A stretch of 64,000 nt of DNA from Pseudoxanthomonas helianthi. GTDB lineage: Bacteria > Pseudomonadota > Gammaproteobacteria > Xanthomonadales > Xanthomonadaceae. Position numbers and translations under genes: made by a program. The DNA lies in NCBI RefSeq assembly GCF_017939625.1, contig NZ_JAGKTC010000002.1, forward strand, positions 62,629-126,628. The letters are read 5' to 3'. Shown in pieces: positions 14,393-20,599 of this stretch. Under the pieces are notes generated by a model. That model was not told the DNA's origin, ran no database searches, and saw nothing but the letters and a program-made list of their open reading frames with translations. The stretch's first letter is position 1. Every line of letters starts with the position of its first letter.

Positions 14393-14497
14393 TTTGCTCG
14401 TCGTCCCGGCGCAAGCCGGGATCCAGCTCCGGCTCCTGTGGTTGCCTGCCGAGCGGAAAGCAAAGGCTGGGTCCCGGCTTGCGCCGGGATGACGACG
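14393..14497. repeat. Inverted repeat of the CCCGGCGCAAGCCGGGATCC type
   Basis: The left arm near 14399-14427 and the right arm near 14466-14497 pair imperfectly around a loop of about 40 bases. Each arm is itself palindromic (CCCGGCGCAAGCCGGG). The element lies between ridA and the convergent AraC-type gene and could act as a bidirectional transcription barrier. Confidence 0.8.
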
Positions 14498-14520: not shown

Positions 14521-15558
14521 TCAGCCGAAATGGTGCCGGGCTTCGCTCGGCGCTTGCCCGGTCCAGCGCTTGAAGGCGCGACGGAATTCGCGCACGTCGT
14601 TGAAGCCGATCTGGCCGCCGATCCAGGCGATGGTCAGCGCCGGGTCCTGCAGCAGTTCCAGCGCGCGTTCGGTGCGGACGCGATCGTGCACCGCGCTGAA
14701 GCTGGTGCCTTCTTCGGCGAGCTGGCGGCGCAAGGTGCGTTCGCTCAGGTGCAGGGCCGTCGCGATGTCGGTCATTTGCGGGTTCTCGCGCAGGCGCGGT
14801 CGCAACTGGCGCTCGACCGCCGCGGTGGTTTCGCCGCGCGGCGATATCGCCGCCAGTTGCGCCTGGCACAAGGCCAGCGCCTGCTGCGAAGTCACCGGGT
14901 TGTAGCTGGCGAACGGCAACGCCAGCCAGCGGCGATCCACCACCATCGCATGCTGCGGCTGGTCGAAACGCACTTCGCAGCCGAACAGGTCGTGGTAACG
15001 CGCGGCATAGCGTGGCGCGGGGTAACCCAGCTCGAGCCGCAACGGGCGGAATTCCGGGCCGGCCAGTTCGCGCGCCAGCATCAATGTGCTGGCGAACATC
15101 TCTTCGCATAGGAAGGGCAGCAGGTCGGCGGCCTCCTCGGGCGCGGTGGCGGTCACGGCAAGGCCGCCGTCGTCGCGGTCCTGCAATTCCAGTTCCATCA
15201 GCGGCCCGAGGTTGCGCTGGTACTCGAGCCCGATCAGCACGGCGTCGCCGAAGGTGGGGGCGGTCTTCATCGCCAATCCGAGCACGCCGAAATTGCCTCC
15301 GTTCTGGGTTCCGCCGATGGCAAGGCCGGTGCCTTCGATCGGCAGCGTCGGCAATGCGCGACGGATCACTTCGCACGCCTGACGATAGGAGACGCGTGCC
15401 TGGGGGTCGTGGATCTCCTGCACGTTCAAGCGCATGCCCGCGAACCAGCTCTCGGTGTTGACGCCGAACTCGCCGGCCAGCAGCACCAGGCTGCACAGCA
15501 TGTTGGTGGGAAGGTTGGCAATCGAAAGACGGCTGCCCAGTCCGGTTTTCCATTGCAT
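14521..15558 (-). CDS. AraC-type regulator with arabinose-binding-like domain
   Basis: This 345-residue regulator has an N-terminal ligand-binding domain like those of OruR/ArgR-type AraC proteins (about residues 20-200) and a C-terminal AraC helix-turn-helix pair (LHLSERTLRRQLAEEGTSFSAV, then AWIGGQIGFNDVREFRRAFKRWTGQAPSEAR). The ATG at 15558 has a strong GGAGGGG ribosome site. It is divergent from the beta-helix / diheme cytochrome / TonB receptor genes, with 118 bases between starts, so it very likely controls that transcript. Regulators of this shape usually respond to small organic ligands. The identity of the ligand is not visible here. Confidence 0.85.
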   Translation of the reverse strand: MQWKTGLGSRLSIANLPTNMLCSLVLLAGEFGVNTESWFAGMRLNVQEIHDPQARVSYRQACEVIRRALPTLPIEGTGLAIGGTQNGGNFGVLGLAMKTAPTFGDAVLIGLEYQRNLGPLMELELQDRDDGGLAVTATAPEEAADLLPFLCEEMFASTLMLARELAGPEFRPLRLELGYPAPRYAARYHDLFGCEVRFDQPQHAMVVDRRWLALPFASYNPVTSQQALALCQAQLAAISPRGETTAAVERQLRPRLRENPQMTDIATALHLSERTLRRQLAEEGTSFSAVHDRVRTERALELLQDPALTIAWIGGQIGFNDVREFRRAFKRWTGQAPSEARHHFG

Positions 15559-15676
15559 CGAAGCCCCTCCAGCTTGTCCGCTTTCCCCCCCGTAGTATGC
15601 CGTTCCTGCCCTCCGCGTGGCGCGAGCCAGCACACAGACTGCGCGACATCATTCGCAGGCGTATGGAGGGGATTTC

Positions 15677-16903
15677 ATGCAGCGCACCATTTCCGTAGCC
15701 GTGGCTGGCGCCTTGGCGCTGTCGCTCGCGGCTTGCCAGCAGAAGGCACCCGAAACCCCCTCGGCGGCGGTACCGGCCGGCGACGCCGCCTTCGCCGCCA
15801 GGTTCCAGGAACAGTTGCTGGACGCCAAGCCGGGCGATGTCATCGAGATTCCGGCGGGCAAGTTCTCCTTCGATCGCAGCCTGACCCTGCGCGCGGACGG
15901 CGTGACCATCCGTGGCGCGGGCATGGACAAGAGCGTGCTCAGCTTCAAGGGCCAGAAGGCCGGCGCCGAAGGCCTGCTGGTCAACGGCGATGATTTCACC
16001 ATCGAAGACCTGACCATCGAGGATTCGAAAGGCGACGGCCTGAAGGTCAGCGAGTCGCAGAACATCACCATCCGCAAGGTCAAGGTGCAGTGGACCGGCG
16101 GGCCGAGCACCAAGAACGGCGGCTACGGCCTGTATCCGGTGCTGACCCGGAACGTGCTGATCGAGGATTCGGTGGCGATCGGCGCTTCCGACGCCGGCAT
16201 CTACGTCGGCCAGTCCAGGGGCGTGATCGTGCGCCGCAGCCGCGCCGAGCAGAACGTGGCCGGCATCGAGATCGAGAACACCATCGACGCCGACGTGTAC
16301 GAGAACGTGGCCACCGGCAACACCGGCGGCATCCTGGTGTTCAACATGCCGGGCCTGTCGCAGCAGGGGGGCAACATCCGCGTGTTCAACAACCAGGTCA
16401 TCGCCAACAACCACGAGAACTTCGGCGCCAAGGGCACGCCGGTGGCCAGCGTGCCGGCCGGCTCGGGCATCGTTGTCAATTCCAACGACGACATCGAGAT
16501 CTTCGCCAACAAGGTCGCCGACAACGCCAGCGCCAACCTGATCCTGTCCAGCGTGTATTCCACCGGATACAAGGACCAGAGCATGTCGAAGGAATTCGAT
16601 CCGTACCCGGAACGCATCTACGTGCACGACAACCAGTTCAGCGGCGGCGGCGATTCGCCCGACCGGCTCGACTTCAAGGCGCTGAAACTGGCCCTGTACG
16701 GCATCGGCGGCAGCCTGCCGGACGTGCTGTTCGATGGTTACGTCAATCCGGCGCGCAAGGAAGGCCCGCAGCTGTGCCTGCGCGGGGTCAGTGGCGTGGT
16801 CAACGTCGACGGACCCAACGGCAACAAGAATCCGAGCAAGGACATGAAGCCGTTCGAATGCGATCTGCCGCGCCTGCCCGCGGTCGACCTGAAGCGGGGT
16901 TGA
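15677..16903 (+). CDS. Parallel beta-helix repeat lipoprotein
   Basis: This 408-residue lipoprotein has a signal peptide ending in the lipobox LAAC (lipidated Cys20). It has a right-handed parallel beta-helix made of short repeats such as VTIRGAGMDKSVL, FTIEDLTIEDSKGDGLKV, ITIRKVKVQWTGG, VLIEDSVAIGASDAGIYVG and VIVRRSRAEQNVAGIEIEN. It resembles a family (I recall TIGR03805) that regularly pairs with the diheme cytochrome family encoded next door. Beta-helix proteins often bind or cleave polysaccharides, but no lyase or hydrolase active site is evident. The start at 15677 has a TGGAGGGG ribosome site, and the next gene begins 8 bases after the stop. An envelope location is clear; the function is unknown. 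Confidence 0.85.
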   Translation: MQRTISVAVAGALALSLAACQQKAPETPSAAVPAGDAAFAARFQEQLLDAKPGDVIEIPAGKFSFDRSLTLRADGVTIRGAGMDKSVLSFKGQKAGAEGLLVNGDDFTIEDLTIEDSKGDGLKVSESQNITIRKVKVQWTGGPSTKNGGYGLYPVLTRNVLIEDSVAIGASDAGIYVGQSRGVIVRRSRAEQNVAGIEIENTIDADVYENVATGNTGGILVFNMPGLSQQGGNIRVFNNQVIANNHENFGAKGTPVASVPAGSGIVVNSNDDIEIFANKVADNASANLILSSVYSTGYKDQSMSKEFDPYPERIYVHDNQFSGGGDSPDRLDFKALKLALYGIGGSLPDVLFDGYVNPARKEGPQLCLRGVSGVVNVDGPNGNKNPSKDMKPFECDLPRLPAVDLKRG

Positions 16904-16911
16904 GCCGCACG

Positions 16912-18075
16912 ATGCCCCGCGTTGTCCTGCTGTTGGTTCTGTCGTTGCTGTTGGCAGCCTGTCGCGGCGCGCAGCCGGTGCATTACTTCGCCGAGGGCCA
17001 GCCGGCCTCGCTCGACGACTGGCATCTGTTGCGCGTCGAAGGCGGCAAGTTGCGCTTGAACGAAGGCGTGGTGCCTTACGATCTCAACACGCCGCTGTTC
17101 AGCGACTACGCGCATAAGCTGCGCACCGTGTGGATGCCGAAGGGCCAGGCCGCGCACTACGACGCCAATGCGGCGTTCGATTTCCCGGTCGGCACCATCC
17201 TCAGCAAGACGTTCTATTACCCGCTCCCGGAAAACGGCAAATGGGACGGCAAATCGGTGGCCCGCACGCCGCCTTCGCTGTCGATGATGGAAGGCGAAAC
17301 GCTGGACCTGGGCAAGGTCCGGTTGATCGAGACCCGGTTGCTGGTCCATCGCGCCGAGGGATGGGTCGCACTGCCGTACGTGTGGAACGACGCGCAGACC
17401 GAGGCCACGCTGAAACGCACCGGCGAGCTGGTGTCGCTGGAACTGGTCGATGCGAACGGCGCGCGCGAGGCCGTGGATTACCAGGTGCCCGACCAGAACC
17501 AGTGTGGTGGTTGCCACCTCACCAACAACCATTCGCGCAAGCTGTTGCCGATCGGGCCGAAGGCGCGGCACCTGAATCGCGAACTCGATTACGCGGCCGG
17601 CCGCGAGAACCAGTTGGCCCACTGGACACGGGTCGGCTATCTACAAGGCGCGCCGGATGCCGCGTCCGCGCCGCGCGCGGTCGATGCCACCGATCCAAAC
17701 GCACCGCTCGACGCGCGCGCCCGGGCTTATCTCGACGTCAACTGCGGCCACTGCCACAGCGCGACCGGTCCGGCGATCACTTCTGGCCTGCATCTGGACG
17801 CATCGCCTGCCACACGCCTGCAGAACGGCTTTTGCAAGCAGCCGGTGGCGGCGGGCAAGGGCACCGGCGACCGCCTGTACGACATCCAGCCCGGTCGCGC
17901 GGACGGTTCGGTCCTGCTGTTCCGCATGGACAGCGACGATCCGTCGGTGATGATGCCGGAAGTGGGGCGCTCGGTCGTGCATCGCGAAGGCGTCGAGCTG
18001 ATCCGGCAATGGATAGACGCGCAGCACGGCAGTTGCGCTGCCGAGGCGGACGTTCCTGCCGCCGCCGGCGGTTGA
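16912..18075 (+). CDS. SO2930-type diheme c-type cytochrome lipoprotein
   Basis: This 387-residue lipoprotein has a lipobox LAAC (Cys17) and two c-type haem sites: C198-GG-C201-H202 (QCGGCH) and C278-GH-C281-H282 (NCGHCH). The MMPEVGR segment near the C-terminus carries a likely axial Met. The N-terminal part (VPYDLNTPLFSDYAHKLRTVWMP) matches a conserved family that I recall as SO2930 / TIGR03806, typically encoded next to the beta-helix lipoprotein. It should be a periplasm-facing, membrane-anchored electron carrier or oxidase. The partner that donates or accepts electrons is not encoded nearby. A TonB receptor follows 49 bases on, so the three genes probably form one operon. Confidence 0.87.
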   Translation: MPRVVLLLVLSLLLAACRGAQPVHYFAEGQPASLDDWHLLRVEGGKLRLNEGVVPYDLNTPLFSDYAHKLRTVWMPKGQAAHYDANAAFDFPVGTILSKTFYYPLPENGKWDGKSVARTPPSLSMMEGETLDLGKVRLIETRLLVHRAEGWVALPYVWNDAQTEATLKRTGELVSLELVDANGAREAVDYQVPDQNQCGGCHLTNNHSRKLLPIGPKARHLNRELDYAAGRENQLAHWTRVGYLQGAPDAASAPRAVDATDPNAPLDARARAYLDVNCGHCHSATGPAITSGLHLDASPATRLQNGFCKQPVAAGKGTGDRLYDIQPGRADGSVLLFRMDSDDPSVMMPEVGRSVVHREGVELIRQWIDAQHGSCAAEADVPAAAGG

Positions 18076-18124
18076 ACGCGCTCTATTGAAACAGGCTTTC
18101 GTACACCACCTGGGAGAGGGAGTG

Positions 18125-20599
18125 ATGAGAACGAAACAACGCAATCTGGTGATCGGGCTGCGTCGCGCCATGATGGGCTGCATGGCGCTGGGCGCCAGCG
18201 GCACGGCATGGGCGCAACAGGCGTCCGCGCCCGCCACGGGGGACGCGGCGACCACGCTGGATCGCATCGTCGTCACCGCGCAGAGCCGCGAGCAGGAGCT
18301 CAAGGACGTGCCCATCGCGTTGCAGGTGGTGGGCGAGGACGTGATGGAGCAGACCGCGGCGGAAAACCTCGGCGATCTCGACAGCTTCGTGCCCGGCCTG
18401 TCGGTCAGCGACGACCAGCCGACCCAGGCCGGCTTCAAGCTGCGCGGCCTGAGCACCGGCGACTTCGGCATCGGTACCGACCCGACCGTCGGCGTGTACG
18501 TCGACGGCGTCTACGCCGGCCGCGGCGGCGGCACCGTGTTGCCGTTTCTCGACGTGGAACGCATCGAGGTACTGAAAGGCCCGCAAGGCACGCTGTTCGG
18601 CCGCAACACCGCCGCCGGCGCCGTGTCGATCATCACCAAGCGGCCCAGCGACCACCTCGAAGGCCGCGCGCGAGTGCGCGTGGGCAACTACGGCAAGCAG
18701 TATTTCGACGGCATGCTCAACCTGCCGGCCGGCGAAGACATGGCCTTCCGCATCAACGCGTTGTACAACCGGACCGACGGCTGGCTGGACGATGCGGCCA
18801 CCGGCGAACCGCTCAACGACGGCAAGAACTGGGCCACGCGCGCGGCGTTCCGCTGGGACATCAGCGACAACACGCAGATGCTGCTGAGCTGGGACCACGA
18901 GGACCTCGACCAGCGCTCGCACCCGACCATCGGCATCGTTGACCTGCCGGCGGCGCCGGGCGTGCCGCCGGTACCGGCCGACCCGGCCGGATACGAGGAT
19001 CCGATCGGCCGTCCCGCCTACACCGACGTGCCCGGCAACGACGAAACCCGCAAGTTCGACGGCGCGACGCTGATCCTCGACCACGCCTTCGAATGGGGCC
19101 ACCTCAGCTCGATGACCGCGTGGCGCAACTTCGACACCTACAACCGCGCCGAGGAAGACGGCACCAACCGCAGCGACCTGTACCTCGACACGATCAACAT
19201 CGAGGACAACACCACCTGGTACCAGGAATTCAAGTTCAGCGGCAACACCGGCTCCCTGGACTGGGTCGCCGGCGCCAGCTGGTTCCAGGAGAAGGCCAAG
19301 CAGTCCAGCGTGGTCGACCTGACCAGCGACAGCATCAATACCGCCGCCGCGGGCCTGTATGGGTTGCCATTGTTCAGCCTGCTGCAGGGTGCCGCGGACG
19401 AATTCGGCATACCGGTGCAACTGTTCGGCAATCCGTGGCGCGAGTCCTACGACAACACCGTGGATTCCACCGCCTACGCGGCGTTCGGCGACGTGATCTG
19501 GCACGCCACCGACAAGTTGAACGTGACTTTCGGCCTGCGCTACACCCGCGACCAGAAGAAGTTCAGCTGGTTCAACGATTACCATCGCGCCGACGCGCTG
19601 AACCAGGGACTGCAGGTGCTGGAGCAGTACGGCGTGCTGCCGCAGCAGGTGCCCTGCTCGATGCTGGGCCTGTGCGCGCCGGGCGGCGAAGACGCGATGA
19701 TCGACATCGATGCCGCCTTCCTCGCCGCGTTCGACCTGGCCTTCAGCGACCCGATCTCGATGGCCAACAAGGGCGTGACCAACCGCGCGAAGCATTCGTG
19801 GAGCGACTGGAGCCCGCGTTTCGTCGTCGACTACCACCCGTCCGAGGACACCATGGTGTTCGCCTCGCTGGCCAAGGGCTACAAGGCCGGCGGCTACAAC
19901 GCGTTCTCGCCCGGCGCCACGTTCGACAACGAAGACGTGTGGAACTTCGAGACCGGCATCAAGCGCGACCTGCGCGACTTGCGCATGCAGTACGAAGCCT
20001 CGGCGTTCTACTACGTCTACGACAACCGCCAGGCGATCCGCCTGGATACGTCGGAAGGCATCCCGCGCTACGTGGTCAGCACCAGCGACCTGACCGCCTG
20101 GGGCCTGGACTTCAGCGCGCGCTGGCATCCCACCGACCAGCTAAGCTTCGACTTCGCCACCGAGTGGATCGACTCGACCTACAAGGACTTCATCACCCCG
20201 GACGGTCGCGACCTGAGCGGCGAACCGACCGGCGAGGCGAACTGGTCGTTCGCCGCCGGCGTCGCCTACACCGTGCCGCTGGCCGCGAACGGCGACCTGC
20301 TGTTCTCGCTGCGCCATTCCTACAACGGCCGCGGCCGCTGCAATTCGGGCTCGGCCAGCCAGGGCAATTGCGGGCGTTACGCCAACTTCACCATCGGCGA
20401 GGAACGCAACCGCACCGATGTGTACGTGCGCTGGCGTTCGCCGTCGACGCAGTGGAGCGTGGCTGCCTACGCCAACAACGTGTTCGACAACCGTTACGTG
20501 AACGGCCTGAACACCTACGGCACCACGGTGATCGGCACCACCGGCGCCGGCATCAGCGAGCCGCGTTTCTACGGCATGGAAGTGCAATACCAGTTCTGA
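18125..20599 (+). CDS. TonB-dependent outer membrane receptor
   Basis: This 824-residue outer-membrane transporter has a signal peptide (cut after AWA, about residue 30) and a plug domain starting LDRIVVTAQSREQELKDVPIALQVV. Its beta-barrel ends GMEVQYQF, with the terminal Phe used by the BAM machinery. It takes up a ligand with energy from TonB-ExbBD. The plug style (VTAQ...ELKDVPIAL) is that of the large family of receptors for carbohydrates and other organics, not a clear siderophore receptor. The ATG at 18125 follows a GGGAGAGGGAG ribosome site; an upstream TTG (18086) is less likely. It closes the beta-helix / cytochrome operon, so its ligand is probably the substrate of that system. Confidence 0.9.
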   Translation: MRTKQRNLVIGLRRAMMGCMALGASGTAWAQQASAPATGDAATTLDRIVVTAQSREQELKDVPIALQVVGEDVMEQTAAENLGDLDSFVPGLSVSDDQPTQAGFKLRGLSTGDFGIGTDPTVGVYVDGVYAGRGGGTVLPFLDVERIEVLKGPQGTLFGRNTAAGAVSIITKRPSDHLEGRARVRVGNYGKQYFDGMLNLPAGEDMAFRINALYNRTDGWLDDAATGEPLNDGKNWATRAAFRWDISDNTQMLLSWDHEDLDQRSHPTIGIVDLPAAPGVPPVPADPAGYEDPIGRPAYTDVPGNDETRKFDGATLILDHAFEWGHLSSMTAWRNFDTYNRAEEDGTNRSDLYLDTINIEDNTTWYQEFKFSGNTGSLDWVAGASWFQEKAKQSSVVDLTSDSINTAAAGLYGLPLFSLLQGAADEFGIPVQLFGNPWRESYDNTVDSTAYAAFGDVIWHATDKLNVTFGLRYTRDQKKFSWFNDYHRADALNQGLQVLEQYGVLPQQVPCSMLGLCAPGGEDAMIDIDAAFLAAFDLAFSDPISMANKGVTNRAKHSWSDWSPRFVVDYHPSEDTMVFASLAKGYKAGGYNAFSPGATFDNEDVWNFETGIKRDLRDLRMQYEASAFYYVYDNRQAIRLDTSEGIPRYVVSTSDLTAWGLDFSARWHPTDQLSFDFATEWIDSTYKDFITPDGRDLSGEPTGEANWSFAAGVAYTVPLAANGDLLFSLRHSYNGRGRCNSGSASQGNCGRYANFTIGEERNRTDVYVRWRSPSTQWSVAAYANNVFDNRYVNGLNTYGTTVIGTTGAGISEPRFYGMEVQYQF

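Follow-up and report, generated by a model that had tools for sequence, protein, structure and literature searches.

A distant cytochrome P460 relative predicted in the diheme cytochrome of a beta-helix/cytochrome lipoprotein pair

The first haem domain of the diheme cytochrome lipoprotein TIGR03806 appears to be distantly related to cytochrome P460: the predicted fold, a profile comparison and weak Pfam matches agree. An invariant lysine and an invariant arginine fall on the positions of the haem cross-link lysine and the capping arginine of P460, and a cross-link is predicted in the cytochrome. We studied it in a 64,000-nucleotide stretch of Pseudoxanthomonas helianthi (assembly GCF_017939625.1, contig NZ_JAGKTC010000002.1, positions 62,629-126,628, forward strand), referred to here as the window. 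The locus has the following features:

14402..14491, no strand assigned: REP-like elements, an inverted pair, in the ridA-araC interval, at the boundary of the cassette and outside the proposed mechanism
14521..15558, minus strand: AraC-family regulator (Arabinose_bd and HTH_18 domains, both over Pfam cut-offs)
15574..15611, plus strand: probable AraC operator, from conservation, with direct half-sites TTGTCCGCTTTCCCCC and TATGCCGTTCCTGCCC, 22 bases apart
15677..16903, plus strand: right-handed beta-helix lipoprotein, TIGR03805 (NCBIfam match)
16912..18075, plus strand: diheme cytochrome lipoprotein P0003, TIGR03806 (NCBIfam match, predicted fold)
18125..20599, plus strand: TonB-dependent receptor P0004 (Plug and beta-barrel domains, both over Pfam cut-offs)

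The coordinates and strands bear out the first-pass annotation, which had described a divergent AraC regulator and three co-directional genes between ridA and recG. The gaps of 8 bases (helix to cytochrome) and 49 bases (cytochrome to receptor) that it gave can be read off the sequence, and the lipidation it proposed for both lipoproteins is matched by a LAAC lipobox in each. Pfam matches confirm the flanking gmk, rpoZ, spoT, ridA and recG. The comparison of gene order that it called for places the cassette within an otherwise tight ridA-recG order: the alignment ends of the two genes lie 14-691 bases apart in 11 relatives without the pair, against a distance of 6.1-7.2 kb in 32 cassette-bearing loci. 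The cassette thus does interrupt a tight order. A recent insertion was rejected, since loci of Pseudoxanthomonas, Stenotrophomonas, Lysobacter and Luteimonas carry the cassette at one and the same position, and it is therefore old there. The cytochrome is absent from 10 of 36 genomes of the same genus.

The two lipoproteins form a tight pair. The helix protein matches TIGR03805 (beta_helix_1) with 434.5 bits against a cut-off of 141.5, and the cytochrome matches TIGR03806 (SO2930 family diheme cytochrome) with 404.2 bits against 313.3. The helix gene lies directly upstream of the cytochrome gene in 80 of 80 loci, and in 6 of 120 the two are naturally fused into one protein. In a phylum sample of 398 genomes, TIGR03806 exceeds its cut-off in 37, all of which also hold TIGR03805, and the pairing given in the first-pass annotation is right. 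The converse holds less strictly: of 45 genomes with the helix, 39 also match TIGR03806 and six do not. The P. helianthi proteins share with the family pair the curated cut-offs passed, the adjacency, the lipoprotein signals and the occasional fusion; to these are added here the P460-like domain, the probable operator, and a regulator and a receptor particular to the lineage. The library names of the two families carry no function, and the portions of the literature searched yielded no functional study of the pair, no function for the TIGR03806 cytochrome and no work tying the pair to P460.

The two haem sites expected in the cytochrome were found as CxxCH motifs at residues 198-202 and 278-282, and the homologues have exactly two such motifs in every one of 120 reading frames. 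The predicted model (pLDDT 93.8, pTM 0.91) consists of a P460-like beta-sheet haem domain at about residues 28-243, with the first CxxCH near its end, followed by a cytochrome c domain with the second CxxCH and a conserved Met348. A structure comparison against the PDB (VIA-align) returned cytochromes P460 and c'-beta in all of rows 1-7, with Z of 7.0-5.6 and rmsd of 3.9-5.0 over 118-138 residues; the next row has a Z of 4.0. These Z values are moderate and can be compatible with a merely common arrangement, and Foldseek alone is non-significant (best match E 0.054). A PDB sequence search with the cytochrome gave no match.

The profile of the cytochrome matched that of 26 Pfam P460-family members with E 1.4e-4 and a probability of 52%. 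As controls, six column shuffles gave E 0.065-0.49, and comparisons with three unrelated families gave E 0.16-0.26. On their own, E values of this kind are weak evidence: the match falls to E 0.0019 once divergent relatives are included, and the cytochrome's second half reaches E 0.0015 against P460 through a match of nine columns, all at the haem motif. Profile matches to small cytochromes are likewise confined to a haem motif. Of 56 homologues, 31 match the P460 family PF16694 at E up to 1 (best E 1.9e-4), all of them under its cut-off. The window cytochrome itself scores 13.3 bits against a gathering score of 27, over residues 66-127, a stretch without a haem motif; we therefore call it P460-like and not a member of PF16694.

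In a joint alignment of 15 cytochromes with the 26 P460-family members, run in three modes, R71, P92, G94, K99, W151 and the CxxCH fall on P460 columns, as does W37 less strictly. K99 lies on the column of McP460 Lys78 in hhalign and in all three joint alignments; Lys78 is the haem cross-link named in PMC6427953, and 14 of the 26 P460-family members have lysine in this column. The spacing is 28 residues both from Arg50 to Lys78 in McP460 and from R71 to K99 in the cytochrome. R71, K99 and E140 are invariant in 56 of 56 sequences. E140 aligns two residues ahead of the distal carboxylate of P460 (Asp102/Glu96). The cytochrome thus shares with P460/c'-beta proteins the predicted fold, the profile match and the positions of the lysine, the arginine, the PxG, the tryptophan and the CxxCH. 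It differs in scoring under the Pfam cut-off, in having extra residues and strands before the CxxCH, and in being a lipoprotein with a second cytochrome c domain and a beta-helix partner; its cross-link, moreover, is predicted. The first-pass annotation had suggested a ligand that is oxidised or reduced at the envelope; a P460-like haem domain would make such redox chemistry likelier.

In seven of the eight divergent relatives scanned, the same cytochrome module is preceded by a GSDH domain, from a family of PQQ-dependent (sugar) dehydrogenases, in the place of the helix. In these proteins of other Gammaproteobacteria the cytochrome is C-terminal to its partner domain and scores under the TIGR03806 cut-off, and its K99 and haem motifs are conserved; K99 is retained in 21 of 21 divergent relatives with data. 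The beta-helix protein has the right-handed fold common to the mannuronan C5-epimerases AlgE and AlgG and to NosD. In the model of a fused relative, as distinct from the window protein, the helix is closest to alginate C5-epimerases and polysaccharide lyases (Z 31-32; 31.4-31.6 to AlgE4 and AlgE6). That model, with a pTM of 0.57 and a disordered linker, is uninformative on the helix-cytochrome interface. The sequence match to NosD is weak, and no AlgE chain is among the six sequence matches. The helix of the ped cluster, as described in PMC12997753, is a pentapeptide-repeat protein unrelated to TIGR03805.

The exchange of helix for GSDH and the likeness to epimerases and lyases would also suit a helix that is itself a sugar- or polymer-active enzyme with the cytochrome as its electron acceptor, as perhaps for GSDH; haem 1, on a scaffold resembling P460/c'-beta, would then serve only to transfer electrons or to bind a gas. 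The helix is also the more conserved of the two proteins (in 27 loci with the window its mean identity is 80%, that of the cytochrome 71%). We hold this reading to be rather unlikely, as Pfam and NCBIfam recognise no redox cofactor family in the helix protein and the P460 pocket positions K99 and R71 are invariant.

The retained lysine and arginine positions could also point to a classic P460 role, in which the cytochrome oxidises or removes hydroxylamine or NO at the surface and the receptor is unrelated. Against this stand the uncertain register of the distal carboxylate at E140, the substrate-type regulator and receptor that adjoin the pair in Lysobacterales, and the lack of any nitrogen-cycle family among 50 neighbour proteins, a chosen sample scanned with Pfam. 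We regard this role as improbable. In some other lineages the neighbours include an aldehyde dehydrogenase, FadL, an acyl-CoA ligase, a lipase or a PQQ alcohol dehydrogenase, which leans towards an organic substrate and away from hydroxylamine.

Least probable, and very much so, is surface electron transfer to metals or electrodes, as assumed for Shewanella SO2931. PMC4837345 and PMC5357785 count SO2930 and SO2931 among outer-membrane cytochromes, and SO2931 is one of the genes removed where every outer-membrane multihaem cytochrome was deleted (PMC5829830). The TIGR03806 protein has only two haems, however; the same 50 neighbour proteins include no MtrAB-type conduit, and the helix partner and the regulator would be left unexplained. 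Hydrazine synthase alpha has a similar propeller-haem-cytochrome layout (PMC12758564). Its family PF18582 (HZS_alpha) exceeds the cut-off in 8 of 16 genomes, never at a TIGR03806 locus, and was rejected.

The regulator and the receptor are additions to the pair, near-constant in Lysobacterales and patchy elsewhere. Of 120 loci, ten without a cytochrome label were left out; among the other 110, 38 carry an AraC homologue no more than 5 kb from the pair, 34 of them grouped with Lysobacterales and four elsewhere. Upstream of the helix gene, direct-repeat half-sites score above 99% of 600 base shuffles in 49 of 57 Lysobacterales loci, the window included, and in none of 63 others. The site occurs once in its own genome at up to three mismatches. 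This conserved repeat is likely the AraC operator, a candidate that the divergent regulator would recognise, and it supports the dedicated regulator proposed earlier. The divergence of the regulator correlates with that of the pair (r 0.86-0.90), against r 0.29-0.57 between recG and the cassette genes, a control in which some recG frames looked cut. The regulator scores below the NCBIfam equivalog cut-offs of QhpR (139.5 of 250 bits), GliR (121.1 of 570) and CypR (109.1 of 500).

The receptor follows the pair less closely (r 0.62-0.64). Of 32 other genomes, seven have a receptor no more than 5 kb from the pair, where receptor density would predict 3.0, and 25 have none nearby. The first-pass annotation had counted the receptor as a member of the unit and named its co-occurrence with the pair as one of the points on which this could fail. 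Membership is supported in Lysobacterales and some Brevundimonas loci; elsewhere the association weakens, and the objection partly applies. A TonB receptor is induced by long-chain alkane in Thalassolituus (PMC6304351). P0004 scores 59.9 of 645 bits against the family of that receptor (TOL_0244), and alkane uptake is a lead only.

We consider the chances about even that the two lipoproteins form a single redox enzyme in P. helianthi, anchored in the outer membrane. The beta-helix protein would bind or present the substrate. Haem 1 would likely be the catalytic or ligand-binding haem, since its domain keeps the P460 cross-link lysine and capping arginine positions, and haem 2, in the class-I-like cytochrome c domain, would pass electrons on to the periplasmic chain. 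In Lysobacterales the local AraC regulator would switch this enzyme together with the TonB receptor, which probably imports the substrate or takes up the product.

A broader proposal, which we put forward tentatively and at somewhat less than even likelihood, is that TIGR03806 represents a widespread, unrecognised heme-lysine cross-linked branch of P460 outside the nitrogen cycle. In this outer-membrane enzyme a catalytic P460 haem would be wired to its own cytochrome c, and interchangeable beta-helix or PQQ dehydrogenase partners would aim the enzyme at organic ligands. What is new is what looks like a P460-like haem domain in a cytochrome that passes its family cut-off in 37 of the 398 sampled genomes and is named from a model organism's protein, SO2930. 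Together with the invariant lysine, it gives the widespread pair a concrete and testable chemistry: whether the haem is cross-linked, what ligand it takes and whether it oxidises it. Catalysis by the P460 haem is linked to hydroxylamine in the review PMC11928373, so a role elsewhere would widen the range of this cofactor.

Within the window, the genes gmk, rpoZ, spoT and ridA are followed by a minus-strand AraC-type regulator gene, three plus-strand genes and recG. The layout described in the first-pass annotation was borne out, with spacers of 8 and 49 bases between the three plus-strand genes:

14402-14491, two REP-like elements in inverted orientation, between ridA and araC
14521-15558, minus strand, AraC-type regulator
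15677-16903, plus strand, beta-helix lipoprotein
16912-18075, plus strand, diheme cytochrome lipoprotein
18125-20599, plus strand, TonB-dependent receptor

The helix protein belongs to TIGR03805 (434.5 bits, cut-off 141.5) and the cytochrome to TIGR03806 (404.2 bits, cut-off 313.3). Each has an N-terminal signal peptide with LAAC at its end, and a simple motif rule finds a lipobox in 76 of the 120 helix homologues and in 90 of the 120 cytochrome homologues. Under the E. coli lipoprotein sorting rule, the residue after the cysteine bears on outer-membrane delivery; the residues found here, Q in the helix and R in the cytochrome, are compatible with such delivery of both proteins.

A contig scan recovered 231 stretches related to the cytochrome. 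In all of the best 80, which we analysed, the helix gene lies directly upstream, confirming that the two families travel as a pair. Three pooled homologue searches found the two as a single reading frame of 885-1026 residues, helix N-terminal, in 6 of 120 loci. In an evenly drawn phylum sample of 398 genomes, the TIGR03806 cut-off is exceeded in 37, every one of which also contains a TIGR03805 match (sets matched by hand). TIGR03805 itself occurs at E up to 1e-30 in 45 genomes of this sample; six of them (G537, G642, G724, G726, G733 and G754) have no TIGR03806 match, and their lower-scoring helix proteins of 509-580 residues possibly form a stand-alone branch. Of 369 genomes of the class, 39 match TIGR03806, and just 7 of these exceed the cut-off; among the 32 below it, 21 have the match in an open frame of at least 700 residues. 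Three loci with fused proteins (L101, L102 and L103) have an AraC gene close by, and two of the three, L101 and L102, carry an extra TIGR03806 cytochrome. These fusions are possibly Shewanella SO2931/SO2930. By fold, the modelled helix of L103 is closest to alginate epimerases/lyases (Z 31-32).

The cytochrome was modelled from a 56-sequence alignment (pLDDT 93.8, pTM 0.91). Foldseek alone found nothing significant for this model. Among 998 chains compared with VIA-align, the top seven rows consist entirely of cytochrome P460 or c'-beta structures, with moderate Z scores of 7.0 to 5.6 and an eighth row at 4.0; the alignments lie inside model residues 23-252 (rmsd 3.9-5.0). Aligning the family with 26 proteins of PF16694 (cytochrome P460) by hhalign gave E 1.4e-4 and a probability of 52%, against E 0.065-0.49 for six column shuffles, 0.16-0.26 for three other families and 0.0031, via the signal peptide, for the helix family. 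Two results count against the match: an alignment widened by divergent relatives was weaker (E 0.0019) in an unchanged register, and the second half of the cytochrome reached E 0.0015 over nine columns at its own haem motif. Below its cut-off, PF16694 matches 31 of the 56 members, the best at E 1.9e-4. Other cytochrome models match more of them, but the PF16694 stretch in the window protein, residues 66-127, is free of haem motifs. On balance, the sequence comparison agrees with the predicted P460/c'-beta fold.

Residue correspondence was obtained by aligning the P460 profile to McP460 (6hiu) and counting positions by hand. On this count, the ILxK-strand lysine corresponds to McP460 Lys78 and the LR arginine to Arg50, which PMC6427953 gives as the cross-link and a pocket residue; Table 2 of PMC11928373 lists Lys70/Lys78, Glu96/Asp102 and Arg50. 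Three joint alignments of 15 cytochromes and 26 P460-family proteins place K99, R71, P92, G94 and W151 on matching columns; for W37 this holds in 10 of the 15 cytochromes. In the P460 family, the cross-link column is K in 14 of 26 members and F, M or V in the remainder. K99 and R71 are invariant in 56/56 members (conservation 1.00 among 112 aligned sequences). E140 is likewise invariant in the 56 but aligns at Gln100, two residues ahead of the distal carboxylate Asp102, for which it is an uncertain counterpart. Pfam Cytochrom_C matches the second half weakly in 51 of 56 members; with Met348-Pro conserved ahead of a C-terminal helix, this half probably resembles class I cytochrome c.

Among the divergent relatives (22 proteins in 20 loci), K99 is present in all 21 that have data, while 18 of 21 retain R71 and 21 of 22 retain E140. 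In seven of the eight scanned with Pfam, a GSDH domain precedes the cytochrome, occupying the position of the pair's helix. Another locus (L167, 64-4275) carries three TIGR03806-like proteins of 467-480 residues in tandem; GSDH was absent from the one scanned. HZS_alpha frames of 890-1219 residues pass the Pfam cut-off in gammaproteobacterial genomes G105, G191, G335, G427, G596, G654, G227 and G774, each also holding large TIGR03806-like proteins.

The receptor's membership in the cassette held for Lysobacterales and not as a constant elsewhere. It is the next gene downstream of the cytochrome in 54 of the best 80 loci (L078 left out of the count): 53 grouped as Lysobacterales, including MAGs L026 and L054 labelled just Proteobacteria, and L066. 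AraC adjoins the cassette in 51 of these 53. Outside the group, a receptor lies within 5 kb of the pair in 8 of 27 loci, six of them Brevundimonas-like (an 89-residue fragment in L085 is counted apart), and in 7 of 32 genomes of other groups versus 3.0 expected from receptor density. The receptor is therefore an addition. Pairwise identities were compared over 27 loci, the window among them: those of AraC, helix and cytochrome correlate with one another at 0.86-0.92, and those of the receptor with these three at 0.60-0.64. The window receptor has its nearest relative in L037 (80% identity), where AraC identity is just 55%; in L021 the receptor is 59% and AraC 88% identical. Discordance between receptor and AraC similarities in L037 and L042 suggests exchange of single cassette genes.

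Upstream of the helix gene lie two direct half-sites resembling TTGKCCGNTTTNCCCCC, mostly spaced 22-23 bases. Their direct orientation and spacing of two helical turns suit AraC-type binding at a candidate operator. The half-sites outscore 99% of shuffles in 49 of the 57 regions from Lysobacterales and in 0 of the 63 from elsewhere, a descriptive result rather than an independent test, the consensus being derived from these same sequences. They accompany both divergent and co-directional AraC genes (the latter in Dyella and Rhodanobacter), and a scan of the window's genome allowing as many as 3 mismatches finds the full site once.

The cassette had been read as interrupting a tight gene order. 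The tightness stands: in 11 relatives without the pair, ridA and recG alignments end 14-691 bases apart with no cassette match. The cytochrome is present in 26 of 36 same-genus genomes. Because the same site is occupied in Lysobacter, Luteimonas, Pseudoxanthomonas and Stenotrophomonas loci, loss would be a simpler account than repeated insertion. With as many as 2 mismatches allowed, the REP-like element has 37 copies in the window's genome, several as inverted pairs; a reversed control pattern has 0.

Of the 110 called loci, 16 have an aldehyde dehydrogenase downstream on the same strand: 10 are of Dyella/Rhodanobacter type, five are Brevundimonas-like and one is L066. For two scanned, the top score, below cut-off, was benzaldehyde dehydrogenase MdlD. 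Nine Dyella/Rhodanobacter-type loci have a FadL homologue no more than 6 kb away (one scanned), and in L132 the frame immediately before the fused protein is FadL-like (25% identity). Single loci have a VolA-type phospholipase (L102, near the fusion), a long-chain acyl-CoA ligase (L066), an AMP-binding enzyme (L083) or a PQQ alcohol dehydrogenase (L096) near the pair. Many of the remaining scanned neighbours are housekeeping genes. These neighbourhoods lean towards a lipid- or alcohol-like organic substrate, the receptor being the sole neighbour compared with background. The pair is best accounted for as a putative envelope redox enzyme, in which the helix would bind the substrate, the P460-like haem would be the acting site and the cytochrome c domain would serve as a relay. 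In the lineage of P. helianthi, the receptor and regulator would couple this enzyme to a ligand.
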